A stretch of DNA of 64,000 bases from a bacterium (GTDB lineage: Bacteria > BMS3Abin14). Positions 24,116 to 47,856 of this stretch are shown piece by piece. The stretch covers positions 899,109 through 963,108 of the forward strand of contig CP070719.1 of NCBI GenBank assembly GCA_020350725.1, in the 5' to 3' direction. Under the pieces are notes generated by a model. The model was not told where the DNA came from. It searched no databases and was given only the letters and a program-made list of their open reading frames with translations. Both the position numbers and the translations under genes were made by a program. How positions within the stretch are numbered: position 1 is the stretch's first letter; the number at the start of each line of letters is the position of its first letter.

Positions 24116-24126
24116 ATATTCAGGCA
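24109..24126. other. 18-bp palindrome spanning two convergent stop codons
   Basis: TGCCTGAATATTCAGGCA is a perfect palindrome. It contains the stops of the + strand methyltransferase and of the - strand gene, both ending GCC TGA, four bases apart. No T-run on either side. Confidence 0.6.
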
Positions 24127-25463: not shown

Positions 25464-25484
25464 GATCTTTATTACCGGTCCTCC

Positions 25485-27595: not shown

Positions 27596-27680
27596 ATGAT
27601 AATTTTCTCCTTTTCGATCGCCGTCCGGCTTCAGGTAGGTTCATTTATGATACGGGAGAATGCCGGGGAAAATGGTTGTA

Positions 27681-28241: not shown

Positions 28242-28243
28242 GC

Positions 28244-31251: not shown

Positions 31252-31256
31252 ACTTT

Positions 31257-32267
31257 CTAGACCTCAAAGTGAGGGTCGCAATTCTCCCTGATCAGCTCCC
31301 TGATTTGATTCACCGTAAGCCATTCGCTGTTGGTTCCACTATTGTAGCGGAAACCGTCGGGACAAAGCCTCCCACCGTTTTTCTTCATATACTCATCGGC
31401 GTCCATGAACTGAAGGGCGGGAAGGATAACATAGTGATCGTCAAACTCGAGGGAACTTAGGGCATCCGTTTCGGTGATCATCTCCTCATGTAGCTTCTCC
31501 CCCGGCCGGATACCGACCACCTCTGTTCTGCATCCGGGACAGACGGCTTCTGCGAGATCCGTAATCCTGAAACTGGGAATCTTAGGGACAAAAATCTCCC
31601 CACCCCACATCCTCTCCAGGCACTTAAGGACAAAATCGACACCCTCTTGCAGGGTTATGTTAAATCGCGTCATCCTCTCGTCCGTAACAGGAAGGATACC
31701 CTTGTCTCTTTTTTCCAGGAAAAACGGAATGACGCTACCGCGGCTTCCCATGACGTTGCCGTACCGCACCACCGAGAATTTAAGGTCCCTTAAGCCCTTG
31801 AAACTGTTGGCCGCTATAAAGAGCTTGTCCGAGCACAGCTTTGTCGCTCCGTACAGATTTATCGGTCCGGCCGCTTTGTCTGTGCTCAGAGCCACGACCT
31901 TCTTTACATCCCTTTCCAGACAAACTTCGATCACATTCTGCGCACCTATAATGTTGGTCTTGATCGTTTCAAAGGGATTATATTCCGCTGTGGGAACGTG
32001 CTTGAGGGCTGCGGCATGTACGACTACGTCAATTCTCTCCATAGCCCTGTACAGCCGGTCCTTGTCCCTGACATCGCCGATAAAATACCTGAGCTGCTCA
32101 TATTTCTCGACGGGGAACCTTTGGGCCATATCGAACTGTTTATGTTCGTCCCGTGAAAATACCACGACCCTTCTGACCCGTGGATACCGGTTGATGATAT
32201 TCTCGATAAACTTCTGGCCGAAGGAACCGGTGCCTCCGGTTACCAAAACTGAATGTTCATTTAGCAA
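31257..32267 (-). CDS. pseB: UDP-N-acetylglucosamine 4,6-dehydratase (inverting)
   Basis: 336 aa SDR enzyme; first step of pseudaminic acid synthesis. NAD site VTGGTGSFGQKF at about 9-20, catalytic region AAALKHVPTAEYNP and ALSTDKAAGPINLYGATKL. TTG start at 32267 with AAAGGAG five bases upstream; first gene of the leftward pse operon. Confidence 0.95.
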   Translation of the reverse strand: MLNEHSVLVTGGTGSFGQKFIENIINRYPRVRRVVVFSRDEHKQFDMAQRFPVEKYEQLRYFIGDVRDKDRLYRAMERIDVVVHAAALKHVPTAEYNPFETIKTNIIGAQNVIEVCLERDVKKVVALSTDKAAGPINLYGATKLCSDKLFIAANSFKGLRDLKFSVVRYGNVMGSRGSVIPFFLEKRDKGILPVTDERMTRFNITLQEGVDFVLKCLERMWGGEIFVPKIPSFRITDLAEAVCPGCRTEVVGIRPGEKLHEEMITETDALSSLEFDDHYVILPALQFMDADEYMKKNGGRLCPDGFRYNSGTNSEWLTVNQIRELIRENCDPHFEV

Positions 32268-32415: not shown

Positions 32416-33711
32416 CTATGGCTCGCCAAACTTCATTTTCAGGATTTCCAGAACGATATCTGCGTTTCTATTCGAAGCACCGGTAGAGCCTCTCAGGGCA
32501 TTCATGGATGCGTGGCCCATCGACATGCGCAGCTCTTCGTCCTGTTTTAGTCTTACGGCAGCCTCCTTAAGGGCATGGCTGTCATCAACTATCCAACAAC
32601 CATTACCCTTGATGAGAATATCCGTTACGTCTCTGAAATTATGCATATTCGGCCCGGTGAGAACGGGTTTGCCGTGCATGGCCGGCTCCAGCAGATTATG
32701 CCCTCCCACAGGCACAAGACTGCCTCCGACAAAAGCGATGTCGGCCATAGCATAGAAACCATCCAAAACCCCCATTGCATCGACCAGCATTACATTCGAA
32801 TCCATCCCGGCAGGATGGTTAAGTGCTGAGTAACGCACGAAGGATATATTCCTTCTGCTCAACAGGGTCTCCACTTCGTCAAAACGTTCCGGATGCCGCG
32901 GAACAAGAACAATCTTGGATCCCTCCAATCCCGGTTCTCCAAGAATATCGATCAAGACCTCTTCTTCACCTCTGTGTGTACTGCCTGCTACCAGAAGGAA
33001 GGAATCTTTTGCCCAGTCATGAACGGCATCAGGCAGAGCAAATTGTTTTGGCCTAATATCGTACTTCATGTTCCCCGTTACCTGGACCCTGTCCTCAGGG
33101 GCCCCGAGAGCTATGACCCTTCTGGCATCCTCCTCGCTCTGCATGAGGAGGACATCAAAGATTCTCATAAAAGGCCCGAAGAACCAGCGGAAGAATCTGT
33201 ACCTGGTGAAGGAACGGTCGGATATCCGGCCGTTGACGAGAACGACCGGTATCCTCTGTCTATAGCAGGTGTAGAGGAAATTGGGCCATATCTCCGTCTC
33301 AGTGGTCACAAACAGAGAAGGTCTTATCCGGGAAAGGGCCCTCTTTACCGGGATGAGGAGATCGAGGGGGAAGTAAAAGATCCTGTCAGCGCTTTCAATT
33401 TCACGACGGGCGGTGCCATGCCCCGTTACCGTCACAGTGGAGAGTAAAAGGCGGCAGTTGCCTGTCAGTTTCTCTGAGAGAAGCTTTACCATGGGTGATA
33501 CAGCCCGGACCTCTCCCACAGATACGGCGTGGATCCAGACGTTATTTCCACTATCCTGTGGAGCCCAGCCTAATCTCTCCTTGATGCCCGCTTTTCTCCT
33601 GGGGACGAAGATAAGCTGGAGGATGACCCAGGGCAGGAGAGCCAAGGACACGCCGTGGAGGATCAGGTTATATAGGGCAATTCTCCACCCGAGCCCCTGT
33701 ACCTTACTCAC
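32416..33711 (-). CDS. waaA: 3-deoxy-D-manno-octulosonic acid transferase
   Basis: 431 aa GT30 enzyme that adds Kdo to lipid IVA at the inner membrane. One N-terminal hydrophobic segment (about 20-35), then WIHAVSVGEVRAVSPMV, TTETEIWPNF, RISDRSFTRY and MQSEEDARRVIALGA, all typical. How many Kdo residues it adds cannot be read from sequence. GTG start at 33711 overlapping the end of the DUF3108 gene. It lies between the pse operon and lipid A genes. Confidence 0.95.
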   Translation of the reverse strand: MSKVQGLGWRIALYNLILHGVSLALLPWVILQLIFVPRRKAGIKERLGWAPQDSGNNVWIHAVSVGEVRAVSPMVKLLSEKLTGNCRLLLSTVTVTGHGTARREIESADRIFYFPLDLLIPVKRALSRIRPSLFVTTETEIWPNFLYTCYRQRIPVVLVNGRISDRSFTRYRFFRWFFGPFMRIFDVLLMQSEEDARRVIALGAPEDRVQVTGNMKYDIRPKQFALPDAVHDWAKDSFLLVAGSTHRGEEEVLIDILGEPGLEGSKIVLVPRHPERFDEVETLLSRRNISFVRYSALNHPAGMDSNVMLVDAMGVLDGFYAMADIAFVGGSLVPVGGHNLLEPAMHGKPVLTGPNMHNFRDVTDILIKGNGCWIVDDSHALKEAAVRLKQDEELRMSMGHASMNALRGSTGASNRNADIVLEILKMKFGEP

Positions 33712-34501
33712 TCTTATTCATCCCTTCCGGTGAAGTATCCGCAGCATCGATGTATTGAACCAACTCGGCGTTGATGCTGCCGACGCTGACCTTGCTCCTC
33801 ATCAAAACGGGTATGTGGCGTTCGTCGTCCGTCATCCACACGAACAATTCACCCTTTCTGCGGAAAATTCCTTCGAACTTCAGTTTCGGCTGGACCTTGA
33901 TTGTCATAAACCGGCCCGCAGCCACCTCCACTTCTTCTCGGGCAAGGACGTCCACCTCGAGTTCATAGTTCTTTCTGTTGTCGAAGACCTTGAATGTCAC
34001 ACTGTCACCGACAGCGAACTGCATGTTCCTCATGGCATAGAGGGAGGACAGGGTGTCGTATGTCTGTCTTTCTATCTCGTACACAATGTTGCTTGTCCTA
34101 TCATCCTCCCTCTCGATCCTCTTCACCAGCTGCCTGTTCTGGTCGAAGAGGAAGATCCTGTCACTCCTCTTACTTCCCTCCCGCATGTGATGGATGTACT
34201 TTCTCGGCAGGCCGTCCTCAGGGGATATGTGGGACTCGTAGCGGTTGCGGACCGGATAGATCATGTCGATGACCGCACGTGATTCGGCTGTATTGACAAG
34301 CTTATATATGGTTCTGCCCCTGAGGTCCTTTGCCTCTTCCACAGACATGACGGTGTCTGCGGCAGCGATACCTGCCCAGGTCAGAACGAATTCGAGACGT
34401 TCCCCGGGACCGAAGGCACTGACGGGACTGGTATCCCCTTCAATTGGAAAGCATGCCAGAAAGAACAGGATGATGGTGGCAAAAGAAATCCTGGAAATCA
34501 T
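33704..34501 (-). CDS. DUF3108 domain protein, exported
   Basis: 265 aa with an N-terminal signal peptide (hydrophobic about 6-17). The rest fits DUF3108: GERLEFVLTWAGIAAADTVMSV opening and the repeated charged strands typical of that periplasmic beta-rich family. Function is not established. Start ATG 34501 overlaps the gmhB stop (ATGA), and it overlaps waaA, so it is embedded in the LPS operon and probably has an envelope role. Confidence 0.8.
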   Translation of the reverse strand: MISRISFATIILFFLACFPIEGDTSPVSAFGPGERLEFVLTWAGIAAADTVMSVEEAKDLRGRTIYKLVNTAESRAVIDMIYPVRNRYESHISPEDGLPRKYIHHMREGSKRSDRIFLFDQNRQLVKRIEREDDRTSNIVYEIERQTYDTLSSLYAMRNMQFAVGDSVTFKVFDNRKNYELEVDVLAREEVEVAAGRFMTIKVQPKLKFEGIFRRKGELFVWMTDDERHIPVLMRSKVSVGSINAELVQYIDAADTSPEGMNKSE

Positions 34502-35058
34502 GATCCTTCTCCTGCGATCATCCGGGCGGCCTCCAAAAGATCCTTCGCCCTTGCAGTACCCTCCGGAACTGTGCCCTTATCCTCCCTTCCGGTGACCACG
34601 AGGATGGACCTTGCCCCTGCCCTCTGGGCCATAATGATGTCCCTGGCTGCGTCACCGACAACCCAGGACCGCTGAATATCGAGGGAAAAATCAGCCACCG
34701 CCCGTTGGGTCATCTTTATCCCCGGCTTCCGACATGCACAGCCGTCATCCGGCGAGTGGGGACAGTGATATATCCCTTTGATGTGGATTCCCTTTTCGTC
34801 CAGAAGCGCCGAAAGACGAAGATTGACGGCAATCGCGTCCTCATCTGAAAAGTATCCCCTTCCGATTCCCGATTGATTGGTGACCACGATCAGAACGTAA
34901 CCAGCCTGCTGGAGGATCCGAAGGGCCTCGATGGCGCCCGGCAGAAAATGAATGCCTTCCGGATCCCCGAGGTATCCCGTCTCGTCGATGATCGTTCCAT
35001 CCCGGTCGAGAAGCACAGCGGGATGTAATTCTTTATCGTTGTCGGATCGATCACTCAT
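34498..35058 (-). CDS. gmhB: D-glycero-beta-D-manno-heptose 1,7-bisphosphate 7-phosphatase
   Basis: HAD phosphatase of ADP-heptose synthesis; 186 aa. Catalytic LLDRDGTIIDETGYL, the VVTNQSGIGRGYF motif and the zinc-binding YHCPHSPDDGCACRKP loop are all present. ATG at 35058 gives the family start; the open frame upstream runs through a heptamer repeat and is non-coding. Works with the kinase at 16762-17766. Confidence 0.94.
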   Translation of the reverse strand: MSDRSDNDKELHPAVLLDRDGTIIDETGYLGDPEGIHFLPGAIEALRILQQAGYVLIVVTNQSGIGRGYFSDEDAIAVNLRLSALLDEKGIHIKGIYHCPHSPDDGCACRKPGIKMTQRAVADFSLDIQRSWVVGDAARDIIMAQRAGARSILVVTGREDKGTVPEGTARAKDLLEAARMIAGEGS

Positions 35059-35082
35059 GTGAGTTTCAGGTTCCCAACATTT

Positions 35083-35110
35083 GATCCAGAGTCCAAAATC
35101 CAAATCCCGG
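35083..35110. repeat. heptamer repeat, left arm
   Basis: Four units upstream of gmhB: GATCCAG, AGTCCAA, AATCCAA, ATCCCGG. Opposite in orientation to the related units at 35214-35234, so the two can be read as an imperfect inverted pair about 100 bp apart. Confidence 0.65.
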
Positions 35111-35213
35111 AATAATGATCTCAAAAGAAGTGGGCCGCACCCTGGAATACCGACTGGAGCACCACACATTGGGTGAAGGAGAACACTCCCTGATCCCGCC
35201 AGGAGTCCTGCTT

Positions 35214-35234
35214 TTGGATTTAGGATTTAGGATT
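35214..35234. repeat. heptamer repeat, right arm, encodes lpxL stop
   Basis: Three units TTGGATT, TAGGATT, TAGGATT on +. Read on - they form the last codons and the TAA stop of lpxL (35220), so the repeat sets that gene's C-terminus. Confidence 0.7.
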
Positions 35235-36128
35235 TTGACCGATCGATTCCCCTTCCGGCCTGGTTTTCCACCTGTTGTGTATCCACATCCACTGCTCCGG
35301 ATATCTGCGCACGACCTTTTCCGTCCAAAGGGTGTAGGCTTTCGTCCTCTCCTTAACGTCCTCTTCCTTGTCCTGGAGCGGCGTCCACGTCATGACGGGT
35401 TCAATAACGATCCTGTGCTTCCTTCCTGTGCGGTGAATGTAGGCCGGCACGACCGCTGCCCCTGTTTTCCTGGCCAGGACACCCAAACTGCTCAGGGTGG
35501 AGGCCTCCCGGTTAAAGAAAGGGACGAAGATGCCGTCTTTTGCCAAGGCGTTCTGGTCCAGAACGAAACCGACGATCCCTCCATTCCTGAGGTGCTGAAG
35601 GATTTCCCTCATGTTGCCGCTGCCGGCGAAAACCGTGGCCCCGGATGATTCCCGGGCCATTATCACCGCCCTGTTAACCGCTACGTTCCTGATGTTCTTG
35701 GTTATGCTGCCCATGGGATACCCCCGAAGGGCCAGGGCAATGCCCAGCAGATCGACGTTGTCCAGATGAACGGTAAGGAGAAGGACTCCCCGCCCTTTGT
35801 CCAGGGATGACCGGAGATGCTCCTCGCCGACAAAATCGATAATGCCGTCTATTCTGTGGCCCATAAGGGATGGAAAAGCCAGGTACTCCATGAAGGCCAT
35901 GCCCAGGTTCATGAAGGACCTCCTGGCAATGGATCTTAATTCCTTTTCCGAATGGGTATCTCCCAGGGATTGCCTGAGGTTGTCCATCGCCAGCCGTCTC
36001 CTCCTGCCAGCGAGAACATACCCGAGCAGCCCGATCGGTTTGCCAATTTCCAGCGCCCAGAACCGGGGCAAAACCCGCCCGAACGCAAACAATAACCTTA
36101 ACAGGGCCGAGATGATCCGATCAGCCAT
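35220..36128 (-). CDS. lpxL: lysophospholipid/lipid A acyltransferase LpxL/HtrB family
   Basis: 302 aa inner-membrane enzyme that adds a secondary acyl chain to Kdo-lipid A. Hydrophobic N-terminus; catalytic HX4D pair is His121 and Asp126 in TVHLDNVDLLG; GFVLDQNA and the WMWIHNRWKTRP tail are typical. ATG 36128 overlaps the lpxK stop and has GGAG six bases upstream. The last residues come from a heptamer repeat. Only one LpxL-type gene is in the window. Confidence 0.9.
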   Translation of the reverse strand: MADRIISALLRLLFAFGRVLPRFWALEIGKPIGLLGYVLAGRRRRLAMDNLRQSLGDTHSEKELRSIARRSFMNLGMAFMEYLAFPSLMGHRIDGIIDFVGEEHLRSSLDKGRGVLLLTVHLDNVDLLGIALALRGYPMGSITKNIRNVAVNRAVIMARESSGATVFAGSGNMREILQHLRNGGIVGFVLDQNALAKDGIFVPFFNREASTLSSLGVLARKTGAAVVPAYIHRTGRKHRIVIEPVMTWTPLQDKEEDVKERTKAYTLWTEKVVRRYPEQWMWIHNRWKTRPEGESIGQNPKS

Positions 36129-37218
36129 CTCCTGCTCCGCCGGCACGCTCTCCCACCAGGGAAATGACACGGTCGATGAGGATGTCCTCACCCGAGAGAA
36201 ATACTGCGTCCATCGCCAGGGCATAGCAGGGAATCGTCGGACGACGGGACGGCCAGCGTACCAGATCCTTCTCCGTGGTCAACAGTGCCCGGGCTCCCAT
36301 CTTTTCAGCCCTCTCGGAAAGGAAGTTCACCTCATGAGATGAATACCGGTGATGATCCCGAAAACGGACATGGTCGACCACGATCAGGGGCAACTCTCTC
36401 AGGGACAATTCGAAAGAACGGGGGTTGGCGATCCCGGAAAACGCCAGGAAATGTGTGGATTCGAGATCTCTCACGTTCAATACCCTGTCCTCTCCGGGAT
36501 GGATGAGTCCCACAGGAACATAGTTGGCCCAGGATATCGGAGCATCGGTCATTTCCTTTAGACTTCCGGTGAACTTTTCATCAATGGCCCCCGCTTTGGT
36601 GACCACGATGAAGTCGGCGTCCCTCAGCCTGGTTGCGGGCTCCCGCAGGATACCGGAGGGAATCAGGGTGCCATTGCCCAGCCTTCTGTGATCGTCGATA
36701 ACCACAACATCAAGGTCTCGGTGAAGGGCAAAATGTTGAAATCCGTCATCCAACAGGAACAGGTCAATTTCCCTTCTGCCGATGGCGTACAACCCCGCCC
36801 GATATCTGTCGGCGCAGACATAAATGGGCACATCCTCCAGTTTTTGGGACATGAGTGTCGGTTCGTCGCCGGCCCGCAGGGCTCCCGGTCCGATGGAATC
36901 GTGGAGTTCCGAGATCGCTCCCTTCTTTCCTTCCTTAAAACTACCGTACCCTCTTGTGAGAACAGCAACCCTGATCCCTCGTTTCCGGAGGCGGGACGCC
37001 AACCATATCACGAGGGGCGTCTTGCCGCCCCCGCCCACCGCAATGTTGCCCACACTGACAACCGGCCTGGGAAGTCGTCTGATCCTCCTGAGCCGGCGGC
37101 GAAATATCATTCGATTAAAGGCACTTACAGCGCCGTACAGAAGGGAAAGGGCAAACAGCAGGGGGATCAGCCAGAACGGGGGCCCGTCCAGAATCTTTGC
37201 CAGACCTCTACGATCCAT
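36121..37218 (-). CDS. lpxK: tetraacyldisaccharide 4'-kinase
   Basis: 365 aa. N-terminal membrane helix (about 14-34), then Walker A VGNIAVGGGGKTPLV (about 55-69) typical of LpxK; DDGFQHFALHRDLDVVVID is the second conserved block. Phosphorylates the lipid A precursor made by LpxB. ATG 37218 lies six bases after the Trm112-like gene. Confidence 0.95.
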   Translation of the reverse strand: MDRRGLAKILDGPPFWLIPLLFALSLLYGAVSAFNRMIFRRRLRRIRRLPRPVVSVGNIAVGGGGKTPLVIWLASRLRKRGIRVAVLTRGYGSFKEGKKGAISELHDSIGPGALRAGDEPTLMSQKLEDVPIYVCADRYRAGLYAIGRREIDLFLLDDGFQHFALHRDLDVVVIDDHRRLGNGTLIPSGILREPATRLRDADFIVVTKAGAIDEKFTGSLKEMTDAPISWANYVPVGLIHPGEDRVLNVRDLESTHFLAFSGIANPRSFELSLRELPLIVVDHVRFRDHHRYSSHEVNFLSERAEKMGARALLTTEKDLVRWPSRRPTIPCYALAMDAVFLSGEDILIDRVISLVGERAGGAGDG

Positions 37219-37511: not shown

Positions 37512-38237
37512 TTAATTACCTTTCCCCTTTCCGCTTTCCACTTTCTTCCTCCCCGCTATTCTGTCTGCCTCCTCCTGGAGGGAGAGCATGCGATCACTCA
37601 GGTTTGTCCGGTCCCGCTCCATGGAATCACGATCCATGTCCGGATCGAAATGCATCGGTTCGCCGAAAAGGATAACCGCCCGCGCGAAGGGGACAGGAAG
37701 CATATACCTGTCCCAGGCTTTTTCCAAGACGACAGCCGGATTCATTGAAGCCGACACCGGAATGACCGACGCCCCGGTTTTTTTCGCCAGGTAAATGACA
37801 CCCGGCTTCACCTCATGAAGCGGACCTCGGGGACCGTCCACCGCCAGGGTTGCGTGATATCCTTCCCCCATGGCCTTTTTCATCCCGATCAGACCTCTCG
37901 CGCCGCCGCGAGAGGTTGACCCTCGGACGATGCGGTGCCCGAAACCCGCCAGAACCTGGGCCTGTAATTCCCCGTCCCGGCTCATGCTGGACATGACCGT
38001 GGTCTTTCTTCCTGCAAAATAGGACACAAGAGGAAACTGTCTGCCGTGGAAGAAGGGGATAATGGCGCACTCACCTTTACTCTCTACGGAGTCGAGCCAC
38101 CCGATTCCGAAATCAGCGATCCTGAGGGTGCCGTAGAGCAGGCGGATAAAGGACCTCACCAAGACGACGGTCAGGTGCCCCTTCAAACCCATCGATCCCC
38201 GGTCACCGACAGGATCGGATGTCATGCACTGATTCAA
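37512..38237 (-). CDS. DUF374 lysophospholipid acyltransferase family protein
   Basis: Up to 241 aa. DUF374 pattern: IIPFFHGRQFPLV (acyltransferase His region), then SRDGELQAQVLAGFG, RGSTSRGGARGL and AVDGPRGPLHEVKPGV. Probably a membrane-linked acyltransferase for lipid A or phospholipid, as it lies in the lpxK-msbA run. Start is ambiguous: TTG 38237 (TTGA overlap with msbA stop, GAGG ten bases off), ATG 38225 or ATG 38192, the last giving the usual family N-terminus. The Lys/Gly-rich C-terminus is encoded by a heptamer repeat. Confidence 0.85.
   Translation of the reverse strand: MNQCMTSDPVGDRGSMGLKGHLTVVLVRSFIRLLYGTLRIADFGIGWLDSVESKGECAIIPFFHGRQFPLVSYFAGRKTTVMSSMSRDGELQAQVLAGFGHRIVRGSTSRGGARGLIGMKKAMGEGYHATLAVDGPRGPLHEVKPGVIYLAKKTGASVIPVSASMNPAVVLEKAWDRYMLPVPFARAVILFGEPMHFDPDMDRDSMERDRTNLSDRMLSLQEEADRIAGRKKVESGKGKGN
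37519..37546. repeat. heptamer repeat inside the 3' end of the DUF374 gene
   Basis: Four near-identical units CCTTTCC, CCTTTCC, GCTTTCC, ACTTTCT. They lie seven bases inside the stop codon and encode the basic tail KKVESGKGKG. Confidence 0.7.
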
Positions 38238-39985
38238 TGATCATTGTCCTCTATCAGCAGGGAGTAGAGACGGGAGTACTCTCCCCCGAGTTCGACGAGT
38301 TCGTCGTGCCGCCCCGACTCCACTATGCGTCCGTCGGACAGGACGATGATCCGGTCGGCGTCCTTCACTGTGGAAATCCGGTGGGCGATGACCAAGGTCG
38401 TCCGACCCCTGACCAGATTTTCCAGGGCCCGCTGGACGAGGTACTCGGACTCGGTGTCGAGGGAGGACGTGGCCTCGTCGAGGATAAGGATCGGTGAATC
38501 CTTGATCAGGGCCCGGGCGATGGACAACCTCTGTCTCTGGCCCCCGGAAAGACGTGTTCCCCGCTCCCCGATCACCGTATCGAGGCCATCGGGCAAGGAG
38601 GCGATGAAGTCGTGAGCGTAGGCGGCGTCGAGAACCTGTTCCAACTCTCGGTCGCCGACATGCTCCATGCCGTAGCAGATGTTGCTCTTGATGGTCTCGT
38701 TAAAGAGGATCACATCCTGGGAGACGACCGAGATCTGCTGGCGGAGGCTCTTCTGGGTGACCGAGCGCACATCGTAATCGTCGATCCATACCGCTCCCGA
38801 GGTGACATCGTAGAACCGAGGGATGAGGTTGACGAGGGTTGTCTTGCCTCCCCCGCTGGATCCGACAATGGCCAATTTCGTGCCGGCCTCGACCTCCAGG
38901 TTAATTCCCCTTAACACCCACTCCGTATCGTACCGGAAGGAAACGTCCTCGAACCGGATTCTCCCCCTGATCCTCGGCAAGATAACGGCGTCAGGACTGT
39001 CCTCGATCTCCGGTGAGATGTCCAGAACGTCGAAGACCCGTTCGGCAGCGGCAAGGCCCTGCTGGATCAGGTTGTTTACGGAGGTCAAATGCTTGATCGG
39101 CTCATAGAGGAGCATCAGGGCCGTGAGGAAGGAGAAGAATTCTCCCACGGTCATGGACCCCCTCATGACCATCAGTCCGCCTACCCAGACGATGACCGCC
39201 ACGGACCCGGCTCCGATAAGCTCCATCACGGGGCTGGACAGGGCCCTGACCTTCTGGATCTTGAGAAAGGTCTTGACCAGCTTTTCGTTGTCCGCTTGAA
39301 AACGGTCCAGCTCCGTCTCTTCTGTTCCGCAGGCCTTGACTAATCCGATGCCTGCGATGCGTTCCTGCATGAGCTTGTTGAGTTCACCCATCTGTTCCTG
39401 GCTGCGTCTGCTGGCCTTCTTCATTTTCCGCCCAAACTGAACCAGCGGATACATGGCCACCGGCAGGACGACCAGGGTAATGATCCCCAGAGTCATGTTT
39501 CTGTAAAGCACCACTCCGGAGAGGATCACGACGGTAAAGACATCACGTATCGCACCTGTCAGGGCCTCGGTGACAGCTCCCTGGATCATCGACACATCGT
39601 AGGTGACCCGGGACATGAGGGTCCCGGTGGGTGTCTCCGTAAAAAAGGACATGGAAAGTGTGTTCAGGTGCCGGTAGAGTTCGTTCCGTATATCCTTCAC
39701 CATCCGGATTCCCGCAGAGTTCATGATGTACATCCTGACAAAACGGCATAGACCCTTGATGAGATAGATCAAAAGGATTGCAAGGGGGACCAGGACAAGC
39801 ATCTGTCTGTCCCGTTCGATGAACACGTCATCGAGCACGTTCTTCATGAGAAGCGCCGACAGGCCGGTGCACAACGAGACACCCACCATGGCCACCGCCG
39901 AGATAACCAGCATCCCGGTATAAGGCTTCACATAGTGGAACAGGCGTCTGTAGAGACGCAGGGCGTGGCTGGTTTTTCCGGACAT
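38234..39985 (-). CDS. msbA: lipid A export ABC transporter MsbA
   Basis: 583 aa half-transporter: six membrane helices in residues 1-320 and a nucleotide-binding domain with Walker A VGSSGGGKTTLV, signature LSGGQRQRLSIARAL and Walker B ILILDEATSSLD. It would flip lipid A-core to the periplasmic face. Type and length match MsbA, and the lpxK neighbourhood supports this over a drug exporter. Confidence 0.94.
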   Translation of the reverse strand: MSGKTSHALRLYRRLFHYVKPYTGMLVISAVAMVGVSLCTGLSALLMKNVLDDVFIERDRQMLVLVPLAILLIYLIKGLCRFVRMYIMNSAGIRMVKDIRNELYRHLNTLSMSFFTETPTGTLMSRVTYDVSMIQGAVTEALTGAIRDVFTVVILSGVVLYRNMTLGIITLVVLPVAMYPLVQFGRKMKKASRRSQEQMGELNKLMQERIAGIGLVKACGTEETELDRFQADNEKLVKTFLKIQKVRALSSPVMELIGAGSVAVIVWVGGLMVMRGSMTVGEFFSFLTALMLLYEPIKHLTSVNNLIQQGLAAAERVFDVLDISPEIEDSPDAVILPRIRGRIRFEDVSFRYDTEWVLRGINLEVEAGTKLAIVGSSGGGKTTLVNLIPRFYDVTSGAVWIDDYDVRSVTQKSLRQQISVVSQDVILFNETIKSNICYGMEHVGDRELEQVLDAAYAHDFIASLPDGLDTVIGERGTRLSGGQRQRLSIARALIKDSPILILDEATSSLDTESEYLVQRALENLVRGRTTLVIAHRISTVKDADRIIVLSDGRIVESGRHDELVELGGEYSRLYSLLIEDNDH

Positions 39986-40310: not shown

Positions 40311-41267
40311 ATGGATAAGCTTAAAGCGGCCGTGATCGGCGTAGGCTACCTGGGCAGGTTCCACGCTCAGAAGTATGCGGCTATGGAGGATGTGGAACTG
40401 ATCGGTGTTGTGGACGCCGATGCGGCCAGGGCGGCAGATGTCGCCGCGGAGCTCGGTACAGCCCCTTATGAGGATCACAGGGTCATTCTGGACAGTGTTG
40501 ATCTCGTCTCCATAGCAGTCCCGACCACCTCCCACTTCGAGGTGGCCAGGTCCTGTCTTCGGGCAGGGGTCCATATCCTGCTGGAAAAACCCATTACCCG
40601 GACCGTGGCCGAGGCGGAATCCCTCATCGAAGAGGCCAAGGCCCGCGATCTGGTCTTTCAGGTAGGTCACCTTGAGCGGTTCAACGAGGCCGTCATGGCC
40701 CTCGAGGGAGCCATTAAAAACCCCATGTTCGTCGAATCCCACCGGCTGGCGCAGTTTCGTCCGAGAGGGACCGACGTCGATGTCGTCCTCGACCTGATGA
40801 TCCACGACATCGACATCATCCTGAGCATCGTTCCCTCAGCGGTCTCTTCGGTGGATTCGGTCGGTGTTCCAGTGCTGTCCGACGAGGTGGACATTGCCAA
40901 CGCCCGGCTGCGATTCGACAACGGCTGTGTGGCCAACGTGACGGCAAGCCGGGTCAGCCGTGAGACCCTGAGAAAGATCAGGATCTTCCAACCGGATTCC
41001 TACATCACCATAGACTATCAGACAAAAAGGATCTCCCTCTTTCGGAAAAACGGGGACGGCGCCCCCGTTCCAGGCCTCCCCAACATCTCCATGGAGGAAA
41101 AGACATTTGAGAGCGGGGACACCCTCTTCGCCGAGATCAGGTCCTTTGTGGATTCCGTGAAAAACGGAACACCGCCTCTCGTCAGCGGAGAGGACGGCAA
41201 AAGAGCCCTGGAGCTGGCCCACGTTATCACGGCAAACCTCACGGGGAAACCGATCGAAGAGGGTTGA
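40311..41267 (+). CDS. gnnA: Gfo/Idh/MocA oxidoreductase, GnnA-like
   Basis: 318 aa. NAD-binding Rossmann start VIGVGYLGRFHAQKY, then EKPITRTVAEAE, the family catalytic Lys motif. In Acidithiobacillus ferrooxidans and Leptospira, GnnA oxidises C3 of UDP-GlcNAc and GnnB aminates it to make UDP-GlcNAc3N for lipid A. The call rests on family, on the DegT partner next door, and on the direct run into lpxB with two lpxA genes nearby. GGGGGA lies five bases before the ATG. Confidence 0.85.
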   Translation: MDKLKAAVIGVGYLGRFHAQKYAAMEDVELIGVVDADAARAADVAAELGTAPYEDHRVILDSVDLVSIAVPTTSHFEVARSCLRAGVHILLEKPITRTVAEAESLIEEAKARDLVFQVGHLERFNEAVMALEGAIKNPMFVESHRLAQFRPRGTDVDVVLDLMIHDIDIILSIVPSAVSSVDSVGVPVLSDEVDIANARLRFDNGCVANVTASRVSRETLRKIRIFQPDSYITIDYQTKRISLFRKNGDGAPVPGLPNISMEEKTFESGDTLFAEIRSFVDSVKNGTPPLVSGEDGKRALELAHVITANLTGKPIEEG

Positions 41268-41357
41268 ACCGGGGAGGGCGCAGACGGATCTGTCCTTTCC
41301 CCTGTCCTCTGTTTGATTAAAGCTGTTCCATCCGCACGGTAGAAAGGAACCGTTGCC

Positions 41358-42452
41358 ATGAAAATCCCCATGGTGGACCTGAAAGTCCAATACCAGGGAC
41401 TTAAGGACGAGATCGAGGAGGGCATCGGAGAGGTCCTGGAGACGGCCCGGTTCATCCTGGGTCCTAACGTCCAATCCCTCGAGGAGGAGGTGGCATCCTA
41501 CTGCGGGGTCAAGCACGCTGTCGGCGTCGCTTCCGGTACGGATGCACTCCATCTGGCCCTCAGGGCGTGCGGGATCGGTGCAGGTGATGAGGTGATCACA
41601 TCTCCGTTCACCTTCATCGCCACGGCGGAGGCCATATCGTACACCGGCGCACGCCCCGTTTTCGTGGATATCGACCCCAGGACGTTCAATATCGATCCGG
41701 ACCTCATCGAAAAGGCGATCACAGGGCGGACAAAGGCCGTGCTGCCCGTACACCTGTTCGGGCAACCGGTGGATATGGATCCGATAAGAGACATCTGCCG
41801 GAGACATTCCCTCAGGATCATTGAGGATTGCGCCCAGTCATTCGGGGCCGATTACGGATCGGTAAAGACCGGGGCAATAGGTGACGCCGGATGCTTCTCC
41901 TTTTTCCCGAGCAAGAACCTCGGCTGTTACGGTGACGGCGGCATGGTGATCACCGACGATGACACCGTTGCCGAAGAGGTCAGGGTCCTCCGCAACCACG
42001 GCAGCCGCATCCAGTACCATCACTCCAGCATAGGGTATAACAGCCGTCTGGACGAGATCCAGGCTGTTGTCCTCCGGACCAAGCTGAGGCGCATCGACGC
42101 TTTCAACGGCAGGCGGCGCGCCAACGCTGCAAGGTACACCGAGATCCTGGTTGGAAGCGGGATCGTCACACCTTTCGAGGACGAAAAGGGATTGCACGTC
42201 TACCACCAGTACACCGTCATGAGCGACCGCCGCGAAGAGCTCAGGCAGGCCCTTGCCGATCAGGGTATTGCCAGTGCAGTCTACTATCCAATCCCCCTTC
42301 ACAGGCAGGAGGTCTACGGGAAGGAGTGGAAGGGTGTTTCCCTGCCGGTTTCCGAGGAAACCGCTTCAAAGGTCCTCTCCCTGCCCATGTACCCGGAGCT
42401 TTCCCGGGTGCAGATCGAAGAGGTCTGCGACACCCTGACAGAGGTCCTTTAG
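41358..42452 (+). CDS. gnnB: DegT/DnrJ family aminotransferase, GnnB-like
   Basis: 364 aa PLP enzyme. IPMVDLKVQYQGLKDEI opening, GTDALHLALRA, EDCAQSFGA and PLP Lys in FSFFPSKNLGCYGDGG. Predicted to place an amino group on C3 of the 3-keto sugar from GnnA, giving UDP-2-acetamido-3-amino-2,3-dideoxyglucose. AAAGGA upstream of the ATG; its stop overlaps the lpxB start by one base. A close WbpE-like relative for another sugar cannot be ruled out by sequence alone. Confidence 0.85.
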   Translation: MKIPMVDLKVQYQGLKDEIEEGIGEVLETARFILGPNVQSLEEEVASYCGVKHAVGVASGTDALHLALRACGIGAGDEVITSPFTFIATAEAISYTGARPVFVDIDPRTFNIDPDLIEKAITGRTKAVLPVHLFGQPVDMDPIRDICRRHSLRIIEDCAQSFGADYGSVKTGAIGDAGCFSFFPSKNLGCYGDGGMVITDDDTVAEEVRVLRNHGSRIQYHHSSIGYNSRLDEIQAVVLRTKLRRIDAFNGRRRANAARYTEILVGSGIVTPFEDEKGLHVYHQYTVMSDRREELRQALADQGIASAVYYPIPLHRQEVYGKEWKGVSLPVSEETASKVLSLPMYPELSRVQIEEVCDTLTEVL

Positions 42453-43621
42453 TGGAATTACCGATGGCGGGCCAGGCATCGGAGCGACGTGCCCTGATCG
42501 TCGCGGGGGAGGCATCCGGAGACCACCACGGCGCCAGCCTTGTCTCCGAGGCTGCGAAGATCGATCCGGACCTAACCTTTTTCGGGGTCGGCGGACCCCT
42601 GATGGTCAAGGCCGGGTGTGACGTCCTCATTTCCTACGAGGAACTCATGGCCTCCGGTTTCGTGGAGGTCGTCAGACATTTTCCCTCCATCCTGAAGGTT
42701 TTCCGGCGTTTAAAAAGGATGTTGACGGGGGGCGAGAGGCCGGATGTCCTCGTTCTCATTGATTATCCGGATTTTAACCTGCGCCTGGCCGAACACGCCA
42801 AACGGGCCGGGATACCTGTCCTGTTCTTCGTCAGCCCGCAGGTGTGGGCGTGGAGGAAGAGCAGGGTCAGGAGGATCGCCGGAGCGGTGGACAGGCTGGC
42901 CGTCATCTTCCCCTTCGAACCGGAACTCTATCGGGGACTGGACATTCGGGTCGATTACGTCGGCAATCCCCTCATGGACGAGGCCTTCATCGGCATCGAG
43001 CGGGAACTCTTTCGTCGACAGCTCGGCATGGATGCGGCAGACACCGTGGTGGGCCTCTTCCCGGGGAGCCGGCCGCACGAGATCCGGTACAATCTGGACA
43101 CCATCCTCAGGGCCGCAGCTATCGTGGCGCGAAGAATTCCCTCCGCCCAGTTTCTCCTTCCCCTCGCCCCCTTTCTCCCGGAGGAGAACGTCAGAACGAG
43201 CGTGGAAAGCTCAGCCCTTCCTGTTACCATAACGTCCGAGAGGATCTACGATGTGGCCAACGCCTGTGACGCGGTGATCACGGCGGCCGGAACCGCTACC
43301 CTCCAGACAGCCCTCATGGGGACACCGATGGTGATTCTGTACAGGATGTCCCCCATCAGCCACGCCATCGCAAGGCGTTTGGTCAGACTCGAGTATATCG
43401 GCCTTGCCAACATAGTCGCCGGCCGGGGAGTCGTGCGGGAGTTCCTGCAGGAACAGGCTGACCCGGACAACATCGCCGAAGAGGTCCTCCGCATCCTTCT
43501 GGACGAGGACTACCGCCAGGGTATCAAGGAGGGGCTGGCCGACATCAGGGCAAAGATGGGAGAACCTGGATGTTCGGCCCGGGTGGCGCACATCGCCTCG
43601 GAGATGAGCAAGGGAAGGTGA
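42452..43621 (+). CDS. lpxB: lipid-A-disaccharide synthase
   Basis: 389 aa GT19 enzyme that joins UDP-diacyl-GlcN to lipid X. N-terminal IVAGEASGDHHGASLV; VSPQVWAWRKSRV and LFPGSRPHEI are the family signatures; AAGTATLQTALMGTPMVILYRM is the donor site. I use the GTG at 42452 (GAGG seven bases upstream, overlapping the gnnB stop as TAGTG). Reading into lpxB from gnnA-gnnB is the main sign that those two serve lipid A. Confidence 0.95.
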   Translation: MELPMAGQASERRALIVAGEASGDHHGASLVSEAAKIDPDLTFFGVGGPLMVKAGCDVLISYEELMASGFVEVVRHFPSILKVFRRLKRMLTGGERPDVLVLIDYPDFNLRLAEHAKRAGIPVLFFVSPQVWAWRKSRVRRIAGAVDRLAVIFPFEPELYRGLDIRVDYVGNPLMDEAFIGIERELFRRQLGMDAADTVVGLFPGSRPHEIRYNLDTILRAAAIVARRIPSAQFLLPLAPFLPEENVRTSVESSALPVTITSERIYDVANACDAVITAAGTATLQTALMGTPMVILYRMSPISHAIARRLVRLEYIGLANIVAGRGVVREFLQEQADPDNIAEEVLRILLDEDYRQGIKEGLADIRAKMGEPGCSARVAHIASEMSKGR

Positions 43622-43640
43622 TCGTCCGACGCCAAGCGTC

Positions 43641-43668
43641 CGTGATTGGTGATTCGTGATTTGTGATT
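43641..43668. repeat. heptamer repeat, left arm of inverted element
   Basis: Four perfect-register units of the form xGTGATT (CGTGATT, GGTGATT, CGTGATT, TGTGATT) just after the lpxB stop. Matches the reverse complement of 43781-43808 at 25 of 28 positions. Confidence 0.85.
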
Positions 43669-43780
43669 TGGTTGTGAATCGATTGATTCAGTGACCATTG
43701 GGGATTATTCAAGTATATTTGCAAAGAATCTTGTCCGAAATAATAGTTCTCTATAATTTGGTTCGCAAGCGGCATTGGCT

Positions 43781-43808
43781 AATCACGAATAACGAATCAC
43801 AAATCACG
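43781..43808. repeat. heptamer repeat, right arm of inverted element
   Basis: Four units AATCACG, AATAACG, AATCACA, AATCACG, the inverse of 43641-43668. The 112 bp between the arms is AT-rich and without an ORF. The whole element fills the gap between the convergent lpxB and lpxA-like genes and could fold into a long hairpin. Confidence 0.85.
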
Positions 43809-43812
43809 TCCT

Positions 43813-44604
43813 TTATCTCGCAAACCCCCTCCTGCCGGACAGAAGAAACTCCATCAGGTGCTCGACCTCTGGCGTCGCGTCTCCGGAAGATCGGATTCTG
43901 GCCAGCGCGTCGTTGAGGAGAAGACCCTTTCGGAATATCGTATCGAAGGCGTCCTGAAGGCTGGATATCGACTTCCCTGAGTACCTGGCTTCTTTCAGGC
44001 CGGCCACATTCAGACCGACAAGTTCGGCTCGATCGCCTCTGGCGGCGCAGAAGGGCGGGATGTCCTTGACCACGATGCACCCCCTCTCGAGGGAAGCCAG
44101 TTTACCGATCCTGCAGAAGGGATGAACGGAACTGAAGCTTCCGAGATGGGCTCCGTCTTCTACGTCGACGTGCCCCCCGGGGTTGGCTCCACTCTCGAAT
44201 CTGACACCGCAACCGACCGTGCTGTCATGAGCCACGTGCGCACAGGCCATGAAGACGTTGTTGTCCCCGATCCTCGTCAGGCCCCTTCCCGTGGTCGTTC
44301 CCCGGTGGACGGTGCAGCACTCGCCGAATACGTTGCCATTACCGATAATGACCTCCGTGTCCTCACCCCTGTACTTGAGGTCCTGAGGGTCACCTCCCAG
44401 GGAGGAGAAGGGGAGAACCTGGTTGTCGGTTCCCATGATCGTTATTCCCATAATAACCGTGTTGGGCCCGATCCGGCTTCCTGATCCGATCCTTACGCGC
44501 GGCCCGATCACAGCGTGGCTGCCGACGACAACGCCATGGTCCAGTTCCGCGCCGGGCATGACGACGGCTCTGGGATCGATAGAGGTCTCGATGCCTGTTT
44601 TCAT
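43813..44604 (-). CDS. LpxA-like acyltransferase, divergent paralogue
   Basis: 263 aa left-handed beta-helix protein with the LpxA C-terminal helical domain. Catalytic His126 (E. coli H125), His123, His145 and His161 are kept, as is PQDLKYRGE. But E. coli Gln161 is Pro, Glu200 is Ala, Arg204 is Glu (GLKEARY) and the acyl-ruler Gly173 is Arg. So it should bind an acyl-ACP, but the acceptor and chain length are probably not those of the standard enzyme. A normal LpxA is two genes upstream (45544). ATG 44604 has a weak ribosome site. Confidence 0.85.
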   Translation of the reverse strand: MKTGIETSIDPRAVVMPGAELDHGVVVGSHAVIGPRVRIGSGSRIGPNTVIMGITIMGTDNQVLPFSSLGGDPQDLKYRGEDTEVIIGNGNVFGECCTVHRGTTTGRGLTRIGDNNVFMACAHVAHDSTVGCGVRFESGANPGGHVDVEDGAHLGSFSSVHPFCRIGKLASLERGCIVVKDIPPFCAARGDRAELVGLNVAGLKEARYSGKSISSLQDAFDTIFRKGLLLNDALARIRSSGDATPEVEHLMEFLLSGRRGFAR

Positions 44605-44692: not shown

Positions 44693-45547
44693 TCACGAAT
44701 GGTCTGAAACACCTTTGTCCAGGACATCTTCATCGGAGAGCGACACGAGGGAAATGGATCGATCCCGGCATAAGGCGTTCAGCTCCCTCAGCCCGAGGAG
44801 AAAACACCGGCCCGATTCCACGGCAATGACGCCGCCCCCTGCCCGGGCCAGGGATGAAGCGGTATGCGGTCCAACTGTGGGAACGTCGAACCGAAAATCA
44901 TGGTCCGGGCTGGACACTTTGACGACGACATTACCTCCGCCCGTGATCCGGCCGGCCCTCTCAATGGCTTCGTCGGTCCCCTCCATCGCCTCCACAGCGA
45001 CAACGGCGAGATCCTTGATGATGACAGTCTGGCCAACGTCCATTTCGGCGATCCTCTTGGCGATCTTCCATCCGAAGCGGGCATCCCGCATCTGTTCGGG
45101 CGTGGGCGGGGGACCGGCGATGTGTCCCTCAACGGCAACAAGCCCGGGGACGATATGGGTGAGCTCCCGGACGGGAAGTCCTTCAGCCGTCAGAAGGTCG
45201 ACAAAACCCGCGAGGATGGTTGATCCGCGTCTGTCGGGCAGCGAATGGAGAAGAGCCAGAAGTCGTGAGTCAAAATCGTCGTTGAAGAAGAGGGAATCGT
45301 GGGGGAGTTTTCCGGCGAGGACGATACTGGTGGATCCCGATCGTCTCAGACCTTCCAGGAGTGCTTCGAGATGACCCACCCGGAACCAGCGGACATCCCG
45401 TCCCGGTGTCTCAATGGAGGGGTCGGCTGCTCCCTCGAAGGCGGCTATGAACAGCTGCTTTCCGGAATCCTCAATGGCCTTCGCCACCTCGAGGGGGAGG
45501 TCGCTGGTCCCGGCCAGAAGGCCTATCCTCTCCTGCGATCCTGTCAC
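44693..45547 (-). CDS. lpxI: UDP-2,3-diacylglucosamine pyrophosphatase LpxI
   Basis: 284 aa, the LpxI (DUF1009) type, used in place of LpxH by many alpha- and deltaproteobacteria. Marks: IGLLAGTSDLPLEVAKA, FRVGHLEALLEGLRR, ILAGFVDLL, and FDVPTVGPHTASSLARAGGGVIAVE. GTG start inside GTGA with the lpxA stop. A 6-bp hairpin (CCGGCT/AGCCGG, 44620-44636) lies in the short gap after it. Confidence 0.93.
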   Translation of the reverse strand: MTGSQERIGLLAGTSDLPLEVAKAIEDSGKQLFIAAFEGAADPSIETPGRDVRWFRVGHLEALLEGLRRSGSTSIVLAGKLPHDSLFFNDDFDSRLLALLHSLPDRRGSTILAGFVDLLTAEGLPVRELTHIVPGLVAVEGHIAGPPPTPEQMRDARFGWKIAKRIAEMDVGQTVIIKDLAVVAVEAMEGTDEAIERAGRITGGGNVVVKVSSPDHDFRFDVPTVGPHTASSLARAGGGVIAVESGRCFLLGLRELNALCRDRSISLVSLSDEDVLDKGVSDHS

Positions 45548-46323
45548 CTGGTGATACCCCGTTCCGAGGCCTCGATGAAGTCGATCAGGTGCCGCACCTC
45601 AGGGCAGTCCGTCACACCATTACGGACCCTTTCGACCGCGTCCTCCAGTTTCAGATCCAGCCTGAAGATCAGCCGGTAGGCGGACTTCAGAGCGTCGATA
45701 GACTCGGGAGAGAAACCCTTCCTCTTCAGGCCGATGAGGTTCAGACCGAAAAGCCTGGCCCTGTCACCCTGAGCGCTGGTGTAGGGCGGAACATCCATGA
45801 CGACAACGGAACCTCCTCCCACCATGGCAAGGGATCCGATGCGGCAGAACTGGTGGATGCCGGACAGCCCCCCGATGATGGCACCGTCGTCGATCGTTAC
45901 GTGTCCACCCAGGGTAGCTGCATTCGCCATAACGACATCGTTTCCGATGATACAGTCGTGGGCGACATGGGTGTAGGCCATAAAAAGGTTCCCATCCCCC
46001 ACCCGGGTAACCATCCCTCCACCCTCGGTCCCCCGGTGGATGGTCGCGCACTCCCGGATCTGATTCCGGTCTCCTATGACGACCTCGCTGTCCTCGCTCC
46101 TGTACTTGAGGTCCTGAGGCTGTGCGCCGATGGAGGCAAAGGGGAAGATCCTGTTGTCCCTTCCGAGGGTGACCTTGCCGTCGACGAAGGCGTGGGAGAG
46201 GACCTCCGTGCCCGATCCGATCTTCACCTCAGGCCCGATGACCGCGAACGGACCGATGCGGACTCCTTCGTCAAGGGAGGCATCGGGGTGGACGACGGCT
46301 CTGGGATCGATGGATGTTTCCAA
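45544..46323 (-). CDS. lpxA: acyl-[ACP]-UDP-N-acetylglucosamine O-acyltransferase
   Basis: 259 aa. Catalytic His122 in THVAHDCIIGN, QDLKYRSE, IHQFCRIG and GLNLIGLKRKGF are all of the standard type, with the ruler glycines (MVGGGS) kept. TTG start at 46323 with GGAGG five bases upstream. In lpxD-fabZ-lpxA-lpxI order, as in many Proteobacteria. With gnnA/gnnB present it may act on UDP-GlcNAc3N and make an amide rather than an ester; sequence alone does not decide. Confidence 0.93.
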   Translation of the reverse strand: METSIDPRAVVHPDASLDEGVRIGPFAVIGPEVKIGSGTEVLSHAFVDGKVTLGRDNRIFPFASIGAQPQDLKYRSEDSEVVIGDRNQIRECATIHRGTEGGGMVTRVGDGNLFMAYTHVAHDCIIGNDVVMANAATLGGHVTIDDGAIIGGLSGIHQFCRIGSLAMVGGGSVVVMDVPPYTSAQGDRARLFGLNLIGLKRKGFSPESIDALKSAYRLIFRLDLKLEDAVERVRNGVTDCPEVRHLIDFIEASERGITR

Positions 46324-46345: not shown

Positions 46346-46813
46346 TCAATCCGAAGCGTCCCGTCCCTCTTCCCGGTCGACGAGAATGGCCTTCATCTCC
46401 GCCTCGCACACCAGATCATTTCCGACATAGGCTTTGCCGAGAAAACTGCCTATTTTCCTGCGCCTCTGGAGGACTACCACCTCACCCCGGAGCTGGTCCC
46501 CGGGGACGACGGGCTTGCGGAACTTGACCTTGTCGATGGACATGAAGTAGATGACCCTACCTTCCATTTCATCTTCATCGCTCGCGGCCTGGGGCTGGTA
46601 CGCGAGGATCCCCGCTATCTGGGCCATGAATTCGATGATCAGCACTCCGGGCATCACCGGATGCCCTGGAAAATGCCCCTGGAAGAAGTTCTCGTTGATC
46701 GTGACGTTCTTGATGCCCACGGCCCTCTGTTCAGGGACAATCTCCAGGATCCTGTCCACGAGCAGAAAGGGGTACCTGTGGGGCAAGATCTTCATGATAC
46801 CGTTGATATCCAT
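46346..46813 (-). CDS. fabZ: 3-hydroxyacyl-[ACP] dehydratase FabZ
   Basis: 155 aa hot-dog enzyme. ILPHRYPFLLVDRI and the active-site GHFPGHPVMPGVLIIEFMAQ (His and, on the helix, Glu) are intact. Shares the 3-hydroxyacyl-ACP pool with LpxA and LpxD, its direct neighbours. A longer C-terminal tail, about 10 residues, is acidic and unconserved. Confidence 0.96.
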   Translation of the reverse strand: MDINGIMKILPHRYPFLLVDRILEIVPEQRAVGIKNVTINENFFQGHFPGHPVMPGVLIIEFMAQIAGILAYQPQAASDEDEMEGRVIYFMSIDKVKFRKPVVPGDQLRGEVVVLQRRRKIGSFLGKAYVGNDLVCEAEMKAILVDREEGRDASD

Positions 46814-46815
46814 CC

Positions 46816-47856
46816 TCAGCTCTCCTTTTTATCTGCCTCGGACAGCCTCTTTACGGCCCTCTCCAGTTCGGCGATCCTGGATCTCATGGATTCGAGGTTC
46901 CTCACGAGAACCGTCGACCGCCTCCACTGCCCGGCATCAACGGCCGGAATACCTCCAACCACAGCGCCCGCCGGGACGTCCTTAATGATGAGGGACTTCG
47001 CCAGGACCACGGATCCGTCCTCCAGATTTAGATGTCCTGCGATGCCCACCTGACCGGCCAAAGTCACCCTGTCGCCAAGGGTGGTGCTGCCTGAAATGCC
47101 CACCTGCGCCACAATGAGGGAGTTTTTCCCTATCTTTACGTTGTGGGCAACCATGATCAGGTTGTCCAGCTTGCAGCCGTCGCCGATGACCGTCTCACCC
47201 ATCACGGCTCTGTCCACAGTGCAGTTCGCCCCGATCTCGACGTCGTCACCGACCCGCACGGTGCCGGCGTGGATGATCTTCCGGTAGTTCTCATCCTCCC
47301 TGGCAAAACCGAATCCGTCACCGCCGATGACGCAGCCTGAATGAACGATGCAGCGGCGGCCGACGATGACCTCCCTCTCCAGGACGACGTGGGGATGGAG
47401 AACACTGTCGTCGCCCACCCGAGCGCCCGGCCCGAGATAAGTGCCGGCCATCAGGGTGACCCGGTCGCCGACAACAGCCCCCTTCTCGACAACGGCGAAG
47501 GGGTGGATCGAGGGGTCGGCTCCGATGGCCGCTCCGTCATGGACGTGGGCAAGGGGGCTGATGCCCGAGCCGGAATATTCCACCCCGTAGAAGACCTCCA
47601 TTGCCTTTGCGTAGGCGAGGTAGGGGTCATCGGCGATCAGGAGGTTCTTGCCCTCATCGGAACAGCCCTTTGAAACAATAACAGCTTCCGCCCTGGTGGT
47701 GGCAAGGAACTCTCCGTATCTGGGGTTTGCGATGAAGGTCAGATCCCCTGGTCCGGCTTCCCTAACGGGACGGACAGCCGAGACCTTCGCGGTTCCGTCA
47801 CCCACCAGCTCCGCTCCGATCAGTTTCGCCAGGTCCTTGAGGGCAAAGCCGGTCAA
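46816..47856 (-). CDS. lpxD: UDP-3-O-acylglucosamine N-acyltransferase
   Basis: 346 aa: N-terminal uridine-binding domain (about 1-95), hexapeptide beta-helix (about 100-295) with catalytic His in MVAHNVKIG, and a C-terminal helix. TTG start at 47856 overlapping the skp stop (TTGA), GAGG four bases upstream. Adds the amide-linked acyl chain at C2. Confidence 0.95.
   Translation of the reverse strand: MTGFALKDLAKLIGAELVGDGTAKVSAVRPVREAGPGDLTFIANPRYGEFLATTRAEAVIVSKGCSDEGKNLLIADDPYLAYAKAMEVFYGVEYSGSGISPLAHVHDGAAIGADPSIHPFAVVEKGAVVGDRVTLMAGTYLGPGARVGDDSVLHPHVVLEREVIVGRRCIVHSGCVIGGDGFGFAREDENYRKIIHAGTVRVGDDVEIGANCTVDRAVMGETVIGDGCKLDNLIMVAHNVKIGKNSLIVAQVGISGSTTLGDRVTLAGQVGIAGHLNLEDGSVVLAKSLIIKDVPAGAVVGGIPAVDAGQWRRSTVLVRNLESMRSRIAELERAVKRLSEADKKES

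Follow-up and report, generated by a model that had tools for sequence, protein, structure and literature searches.

Organization of the lipid A locus

The window, a 64,000-nucleotide stretch of bacterial DNA, contains two genes of the LpxA family, lpxA1 and lpxA2 (Table 1). LpxA begins the synthesis of the outer-membrane component lipid A, whose first acyl chain it determines; the enzyme is a drug target, and E. coli cannot do without it. Both genes belong to a single minus-strand operon with the order lolC-(lolD)-bamA-ompH-lpxD-fabZ-lpxA2-lpxI-lpxA1, in which lpxA2 lies two genes upstream of lpxA1. The product of the intervening lpxI gene falls below the NCBIfam LpxI cut-off. A plus-strand block, gnnA-gnnB-lpxB', is convergent to this operon, and the gnnA-like product has its best full-length NCBIfam match in UDP-GlcNAc 3-dehydrogenase, at a score under the cut-off of that model. 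Beyond the block, the minus strand resumes with msbA, a DUF374-type gene, lpxK, an LpxL-type acyltransferase gene and kdtA. The genome encodes exactly two LpxAs and one LpxC, the latter located elsewhere, and so possesses the standard pathway to lipid A. The kdtA gene is immediately followed by a nonulosonic-acid cluster of the pseudaminic or legionaminic type (24120-32267), with genes for a polysaccharide synthase type 2, a PseC-like aminotransferase, a cytidylyltransferase, NeuB and a polysialyltransferase-like protein.

Table 1 Coordinates of the genes and key codons of the lipid A locus
Feature	Position in window	Strand	Description
Rest of lipid A/Kdo genes	32416..37218	-	
kdtA	32416-33711	-	
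LpxL-type acyltransferase	35220-36224	-	
lpxK	36121-37218	-	
msbA-like ABC transporter	38234..39985	-	Directly after lpxB in relatives
gnnA-like Gfo/Idh oxidoreductase	40311..41267	+	62% identical to GnnA in L126
gnnB-like DegT aminotransferase	41358..42452	+	62% identical to GnnB of the L126 lpxA-gnnA-gnnB-lpxB operon
lpxB'	42464..43621	+	Foreign LpxB replacing the native one (probable); start codon approximate
lpxA1	43813..44604	-	LpxA-family paralogue, divergent; intact ORF of 263 aa that starts with ATG at 44604
Position 204 codon	43990..43992	-	GAA, Glu; Arg in 202/202 others
Position 173 codon (acyl ruler Gly)	44083..44085	-	AGG, Arg; preceding position 172 is Glu
Position 161 codon	44119..44121	-	CCC, Pro; Gln in 202/202 others
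Catalytic base His125 codon	44227..44229	-	Kept
Position 93 codon	44323..44325	-	GGC, Gly; Arg in 202/202 others
lpxI	44693..45547	-	UDP-2,3-diacylglucosamine hydrolase family; LpxI_N and LpxI_C above cut-off
lpxA2	45544..46323	-	Canonical LpxA; TTG start, GGAGG upstream
fabZ	46346..46813	-	Assigned by position and conservation in relatives
lpxD	46816..47856	-	

LpxA1 is a member of the LpxA sequence family

By profile matches over its full length and by its placement in the LpxA tree, LpxA1 is a member of the LpxA sequence family. The protein scores above the cut-off of both NCBIfam LpxA models (NF003657, 282 bits, cut-off 226; TIGR01852, 248 bits, cut-off 231), contains the C-terminal Acetyltransf_11 domain (PF13720, 75 bits, cut-off 24.5) and keeps 32 of the 34 hydrophobic hexapeptide positions of the helix core. 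The LpxD profile matches it at only 43-57 bits, far under cut-off. LpxA2, with which LpxA1 shares 51% identity, is the stronger LpxA match (384 bits versus 282 bits) and keeps all canonical residues except the non-conserved Glu200, which is Ile. A monomer model of LpxA1 made with AlphaFold from an eight-sequence alignment (pLDDT 80.5) gave a TM score of about 0.35 to solved LpxAs, and the LpxA2 control was of similarly low confidence (pLDDT 77.3, pTM 0.66). The LpxA1 model, which has a globally wrong fold, was discarded for reading the cleft.

LpxA1 lacks invariant residues of the active site

The active-site residues of LpxA1 were compared within a set of 203 distinct LpxAs from four phyla and from solved structures, about 40 of which are lower-scoring copies from two-LpxA genomes. 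The set draws on the 11 other genomes sampled from the phylum, on the phyla to which a Desulfuromonas, an Acidobacteria and a Verrucomicrobiales genome belong, and on the solved structures; residue numbers are those of E. coli LpxA, by alignment. Among the active-site positions checked, R93, H122, H125, G143, Q161, N198 and R204 are invariant in all 202 other sequences. LpxA1 retains H122, H125, G143 and N198 and carries R93G, Q161P and R204E, which makes it the only one of the 203 with a change at any of these seven positions. Residue 173 of the acyl ruler is Gly (171), Ala (27), Pro (3) or Met (1) in the other LpxAs and never Arg, the residue found in LpxA1. The UDP/acyl side of the cleft carries additional substitutions, namely I134R, A136E, I152H, M170S and G172E. 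The alignment thus bears out a sequence-only reading of this locus, which had noted in LpxA1 the kept catalytic His, the replacement of Gln161, Arg204 and the ruler Gly173, and in the second LpxA the retention of Gln161, Arg204 and the ruler glycines (Q161, R204, G172 and G173 in LpxA2). That reading also listed Ala for Glu200, which is the correct residue and carries no signal: Glu200 is present in only 8 of the 202 other LpxAs, and the substitution was rejected as evidence of an altered LpxA1. Its list did not include R93G or the wider group of UDP/acyl-side substitutions.

The tally of odd residues is by itself insufficient and the role of each residue matters, since the LpxA of P. aeruginosa, a real LpxA, departs at three positions that were near-invariant in an earlier, smaller set. 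LpxA active sites sit at the interfaces between subunits, where one monomer holds UDP and the adjacent one GlcNAc, and in the P. aeruginosa enzyme Arg200 of monomer A (E. coli R204) and Gln157 of monomer B (E. coli Q161) both hydrogen-bond the alpha-phosphate (PMC7072397). LpxA1, with Glu204 and Pro161 in their place, is the only one of the 203 sequences to lose two alpha-phosphate-binding residues. K76, H122, H125, H144, H160, G173 and R204 are among the residues given as essential for E. coli LpxA (PMC4322802), and G173M alone moves the chain length of LpxA from C14 to C10 (PMC6408518). Instead of a hydrophobic acyl groove with a small residue at position 173, LpxA1 has R173, E172, R134 and E136. 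The catalytic His125 is kept together with His122, Asp126, His144 and His160, and the residues retained in the GlcNAc/catalytic half are D74, K76, H99, H122, H125, G143, H144 and H160. Because H99, H144 and K76 vary in other LpxAs, their retention is weak evidence of activity. Having lost residues that are constant across the 202 other LpxAs, LpxA1 very probably no longer performs the standard LpxA reaction. The earlier proposal that it had changed substrate or chain length, or had become a regulator, holds up as regards this departure; among the three outcomes, the sequence does not pick one.

The changes are concentrated on one half-site

The UDP/acyl and GlcNAc/catalytic half-sites were defined from the literature, and their surprisal was compared among 154 sequences. 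LpxA1 differs from LpxA2 at 12 of the 14 residues of the UDP/acyl half and at 3 of the 14 of the GlcNAc/catalytic half (Q161P, T140N and G158S). The mean surprisal of its UDP/acyl half (4.05) ranks first of the 154, against a next value of 1.81 and a median of 0.87, whereas the remainder of the sequence is unremarkable (1.62, rank 14). Residues never seen in other LpxAs occupy 7 of the 14 UDP/acyl positions, compared with 13 of 229 among the remaining positions (Fisher p 2e-5) and 2 of 14 on the GlcNAc side (p 0.10). The newcomers in the cleft (R134, E136, H152, S170, E172, R173 and E204) are polar or charged. As judged from these comparisons, the change in LpxA1 is focal and lies on the UDP/acyl half, with the left-handed beta-helix core and the catalytic half retained.

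Putative mixed trimers of LpxA1 and LpxA2 would account for this one-sided pattern nearly as well as the reading favored below. In such trimers, LpxA1 would tune the amount or activity of LpxA: the GlcNAc/catalytic half of LpxA1 would form a site with the UDP/acyl half of LpxA2, and the reverse pairing would be dead. The two genes share one operon, and the damage in LpxA1 tracks the division of the site between subunits. The plant gamma-carbonic anhydrases, which are likewise a left-handed helix family, form mixed trimers that include inactive subunits. However, Q161P falls on the GlcNAc side, so that the mixed site would still be short of one phosphate contact, and LpxA2 has no complementary loss. 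Furthermore, for the two LpxAs of S. copri, which are 45% identical, AlphaFold3 preferred homotrimers over heterotrimers (PMC12643348). A literature search on heterotrimeric helix acyltransferases returned no papers. A partnership of this kind is considered unlikely.

The lpxA1 gene is intact and probably constrained

The lpxA1 frame has no stop across its 263 codons despite about one change per residue. Its GC3 (0.72) matches that of the neighboring genes, and its differences from lpxA2 at the three codon positions (0.40/0.29/0.57) are lowest at the second and highest at the third. This combination of open frame, codon-position pattern and neighbor-like GC3 suggests that LpxA1 is probably expressed and constrained in fold. 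Two artefacts were also considered and rejected: sequencing slips, as 9 of 10 unusual codons examined lie two to three bases away from their lpxA2 counterparts, and compensating frameshifts, as the two other frames of lpxA1 do not give back an LpxA2-like sequence.

The open frame, the codon-position pattern and the GC3 argue against a relaxed or decaying duplicate, in which LpxA2 would have kept the job and LpxA1 would drift with its fold and solubility still preserved, as does the concentration of substitutions on one half-site of a protein whose catalytic half and remainder are normal. In favor of decay are a terminal branch three times that of LpxA2, the 22 residues never seen elsewhere (compared with a median of 2 in other LpxAs), the presence of lpxA1 in one genome only and an ATG with no clear Shine-Dalgarno sequence in front. 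The long branch is also compatible with relaxed selection, and relaxed evolution of LpxA1 is a serious rival, if one of fairly low probability.

Origin of lpxA1 and of the neighboring block

In relatives with an intact context, except G011, the order is lpxD-fabZ-lpxA-lpxI-lpxB-msbA with a single lpxA. The source genome has no native lpxB, and the gap between lpxI and msbA is filled by lpxA1 and the inverted gnnA-gnnB-lpxB'. LpxB' clusters with deltaproteobacterial LpxBs and the LpxB of G011, apart from the native LpxBs of other relatives (starred supports). Likewise, gnnA groups with deltaproteobacterial genes, and its product is sister to the GnnA of G080 (support 98/98), whose operon (L126) has the gnnA-gnnB-lpxB order in common with window positions 40311-43621. 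In contrast, LpxA1 lies inside the LpxA clade of the phylum (support 91/88), and this clade together with one deltaproteobacterial LpxA is supported at 90.7/100. These groupings point to horizontal acquisition of gnnA-gnnB-lpxB' as a block that took the place of the native lpxB, and they do not support a foreign origin of lpxA1 along with it. On the tree, lpxA1 derives by duplication from the native lpxA of the phylum and has evolved fast (terminal branch 1.05 versus 0.33 for LpxA2); it is placed after lpxI. Neither candidate sister of LpxA1, LpxA2 or G011, was rejected (AU p 0.45 and 0.22). No orthologue of lpxA1 was found in the 11 other genomes sampled from the phylum, and one scan of 85,000 genomes matched only relatives of 33-43% identity; all evidence on LpxA1 thus comes from a single genome. 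As read from gene order, block acquisition and lpxA1 insertion are both at the same junction.

The spacer between the convergent lpxB' and lpxA1 (43630-43800), which lies at the junction with the acquired block, carries AT-rich repeats resembling GTGATT(C/T)GTGATT on one side and the complementary ATCACGAAT/AATCACAAATCACG motif on the other. In G011 (L054), the foreign lpxB' is inverted as well, with no lpxA1 between lpxI and lpxB'; gnnA was sought in this genome and not detected on a contig that ends just upstream of lpxB'. In another relative, G003, lpxA (L049:8206-8978) is split into two overlapping frames near E. coli residue 172, by either a frameshift or an assembly error.

The genes at 40311-42452 suggest a further role, in which LpxA1 would be dedicated to UDP-GlcNAc3N, the predicted product of GnnA and GnnB, and would give rise to a hybrid GlcN3N-GlcN lipid A. 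The lpxA1 gene adjoins the acquired block, a lipid-A-type gnnA beside lpxB and a second lpxA occur together in this genome only, of the 12 examined from the phylum, and Capnocytophaga canimorsus, which has a hybrid backbone, carries lpxA, lpxA', gnnA and gnnB (PMC3342949). However, UDP-GlcNAc3N still has a UDP carrier, the same as UDP-GlcNAc, and the changed residues of LpxA1 lie away from the sugar pocket, where a 3-amino group would be read against a 3-hydroxyl. In addition, Q161, R204 and R93 are all retained by the Leptospira LpxA (3HSQ) and by the LpxAs of other phyla encoded next to gnnA (L026, L030, L031, L126-L129, L131 and L203). An acceptor switch to UDP-GlcNAc3N alone, which the sequence-only reading had hinted at in the checks that it proposed, is disfavored on these grounds, and a dedicated UDP-GlcNAc3N acyltransferase is quite improbable. 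At E. coli position 99, most of the gnnA-adjacent LpxAs have Asn or Ser (L026, L030, L031, L127-L129 and L203) and those of operons without gnnA have His (L123-L125 and L130), with the exceptions of L126 and L131, which have His beside gnnA. Asn or Ser at this position is a possible marker of UDP-GlcNAc3N use.

Proposed role of LpxA1

The reading that we favor, with a probability of roughly 0.4, is that LpxA2 is the lipid A enzyme and that LpxA1 is a homotrimeric His125 transferase with a changed donor or acceptor. LpxA2 would make UDP-3-acyl-GlcNAc for lipid A. In LpxA1, R204E and Q161P replace two residues that contact the alpha-phosphate from both sides of the subunit interface, and the UDP/acyl half is rebuilt with the polar or charged residues R134, E136, H152, S170, E172 and R173, such that UDP-GlcNAc and a long 3-hydroxyacyl-ACP would no longer be bound normally. 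The homotrimer would then apply the same catalytic histidine to a different substrate pair, for which the candidates may be an acceptor that lacks UDP as a leaving group or an acyl donor that is short or polar. Worded so as to span the mixed-trimer alternative, the proposal is equally tentative, if marginally less probable: LpxA1 may have kept the sugar/catalytic half-site and lost the binding of UDP and long acyl chains, and may act either as a transferase for a new substrate or as a half-site regulator of LpxA in mixed trimers.

Second copies of LpxA are common in the sampled phyla, and their roles are mostly guessed. As the only sampled copy in which the UDP clamp is broken and the catalytic half is kept, LpxA1 offers a clean test of the fates of LpxA duplicates, namely whether they can leave the UDP-sugar reaction or partner a working enzyme.

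Comparison with known LpxAs and second copies

LpxA1 resembles the LpxAs of E. coli (1LXA/2QIA) and P. aeruginosa (5DEM) in its full-length homology, beta-helix core, Acetyltransf_11 domain, His125 and GlcNAc-pocket residues, and differs from them in the lack of R93, Q161 and R204, in Arg173 and in the polar and charged UDP/acyl side of its cleft. The LpxA of Leptospira interrogans (3HSQ), whose PDB title names the basis for sugar nucleotide and acyl chain selectivity, also departs from the E. coli enzyme at E200 and R205, as does LpxA1. Yet the Leptospira protein keeps Q161, R204, R93 and G173 and has Gly76, a pattern opposite to that of LpxA1.

Of the genomes sampled, those with two LpxAs number 24 of 49 for the Verrucomicrobia-type phylum, 12 of 119 for the Acidobacteria-type phylum and 11 of 148 for the Desulfuromonas-type phylum. 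In the last of these, the second LpxAs (L112-L122) form one separate clade, in which K76 is replaced by Ala or Gly in most members and H144 by Tyr in many. Since K76 and H144 count among the residues listed as essential for the E. coli enzyme, these copies too may have changed role. One of the genes (L114:4986-5801) lies between heptosyltransferase and glycosyltransferase genes in a locus resembling those of the LPS core. In the lower-scoring LpxAs of the Verrucomicrobiales phylum (L223-L272), position 76 is often Arg, Ala or Gly, and position 144 is Tyr or Glu in some of them.

A second lpxA has been reported in Geobacter sulfurreducens (PMC3087551), Capnocytophaga canimorsus (lpxA', PMC3342949), Segatella copri (PMC12643348) and Psychrobacter cryohalolentis (PMC4557000). 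Like these bacteria, the source genome has two LpxAs, an arrangement presumed to broaden the variety of lipid A. The Capnocytophaga, Segatella and Psychrobacter copies are compared here by description only, and those of S. copri are reported to keep the catalytic residues (PMC12643348). All of the lower-scoring copies sampled from two-LpxA genomes of the three other phyla keep Q161 and R204, whereas LpxA1 keeps neither. A second LpxA as such is already known, and a loss of the UDP clamp is seen in LpxA1 and in no other sequence examined.
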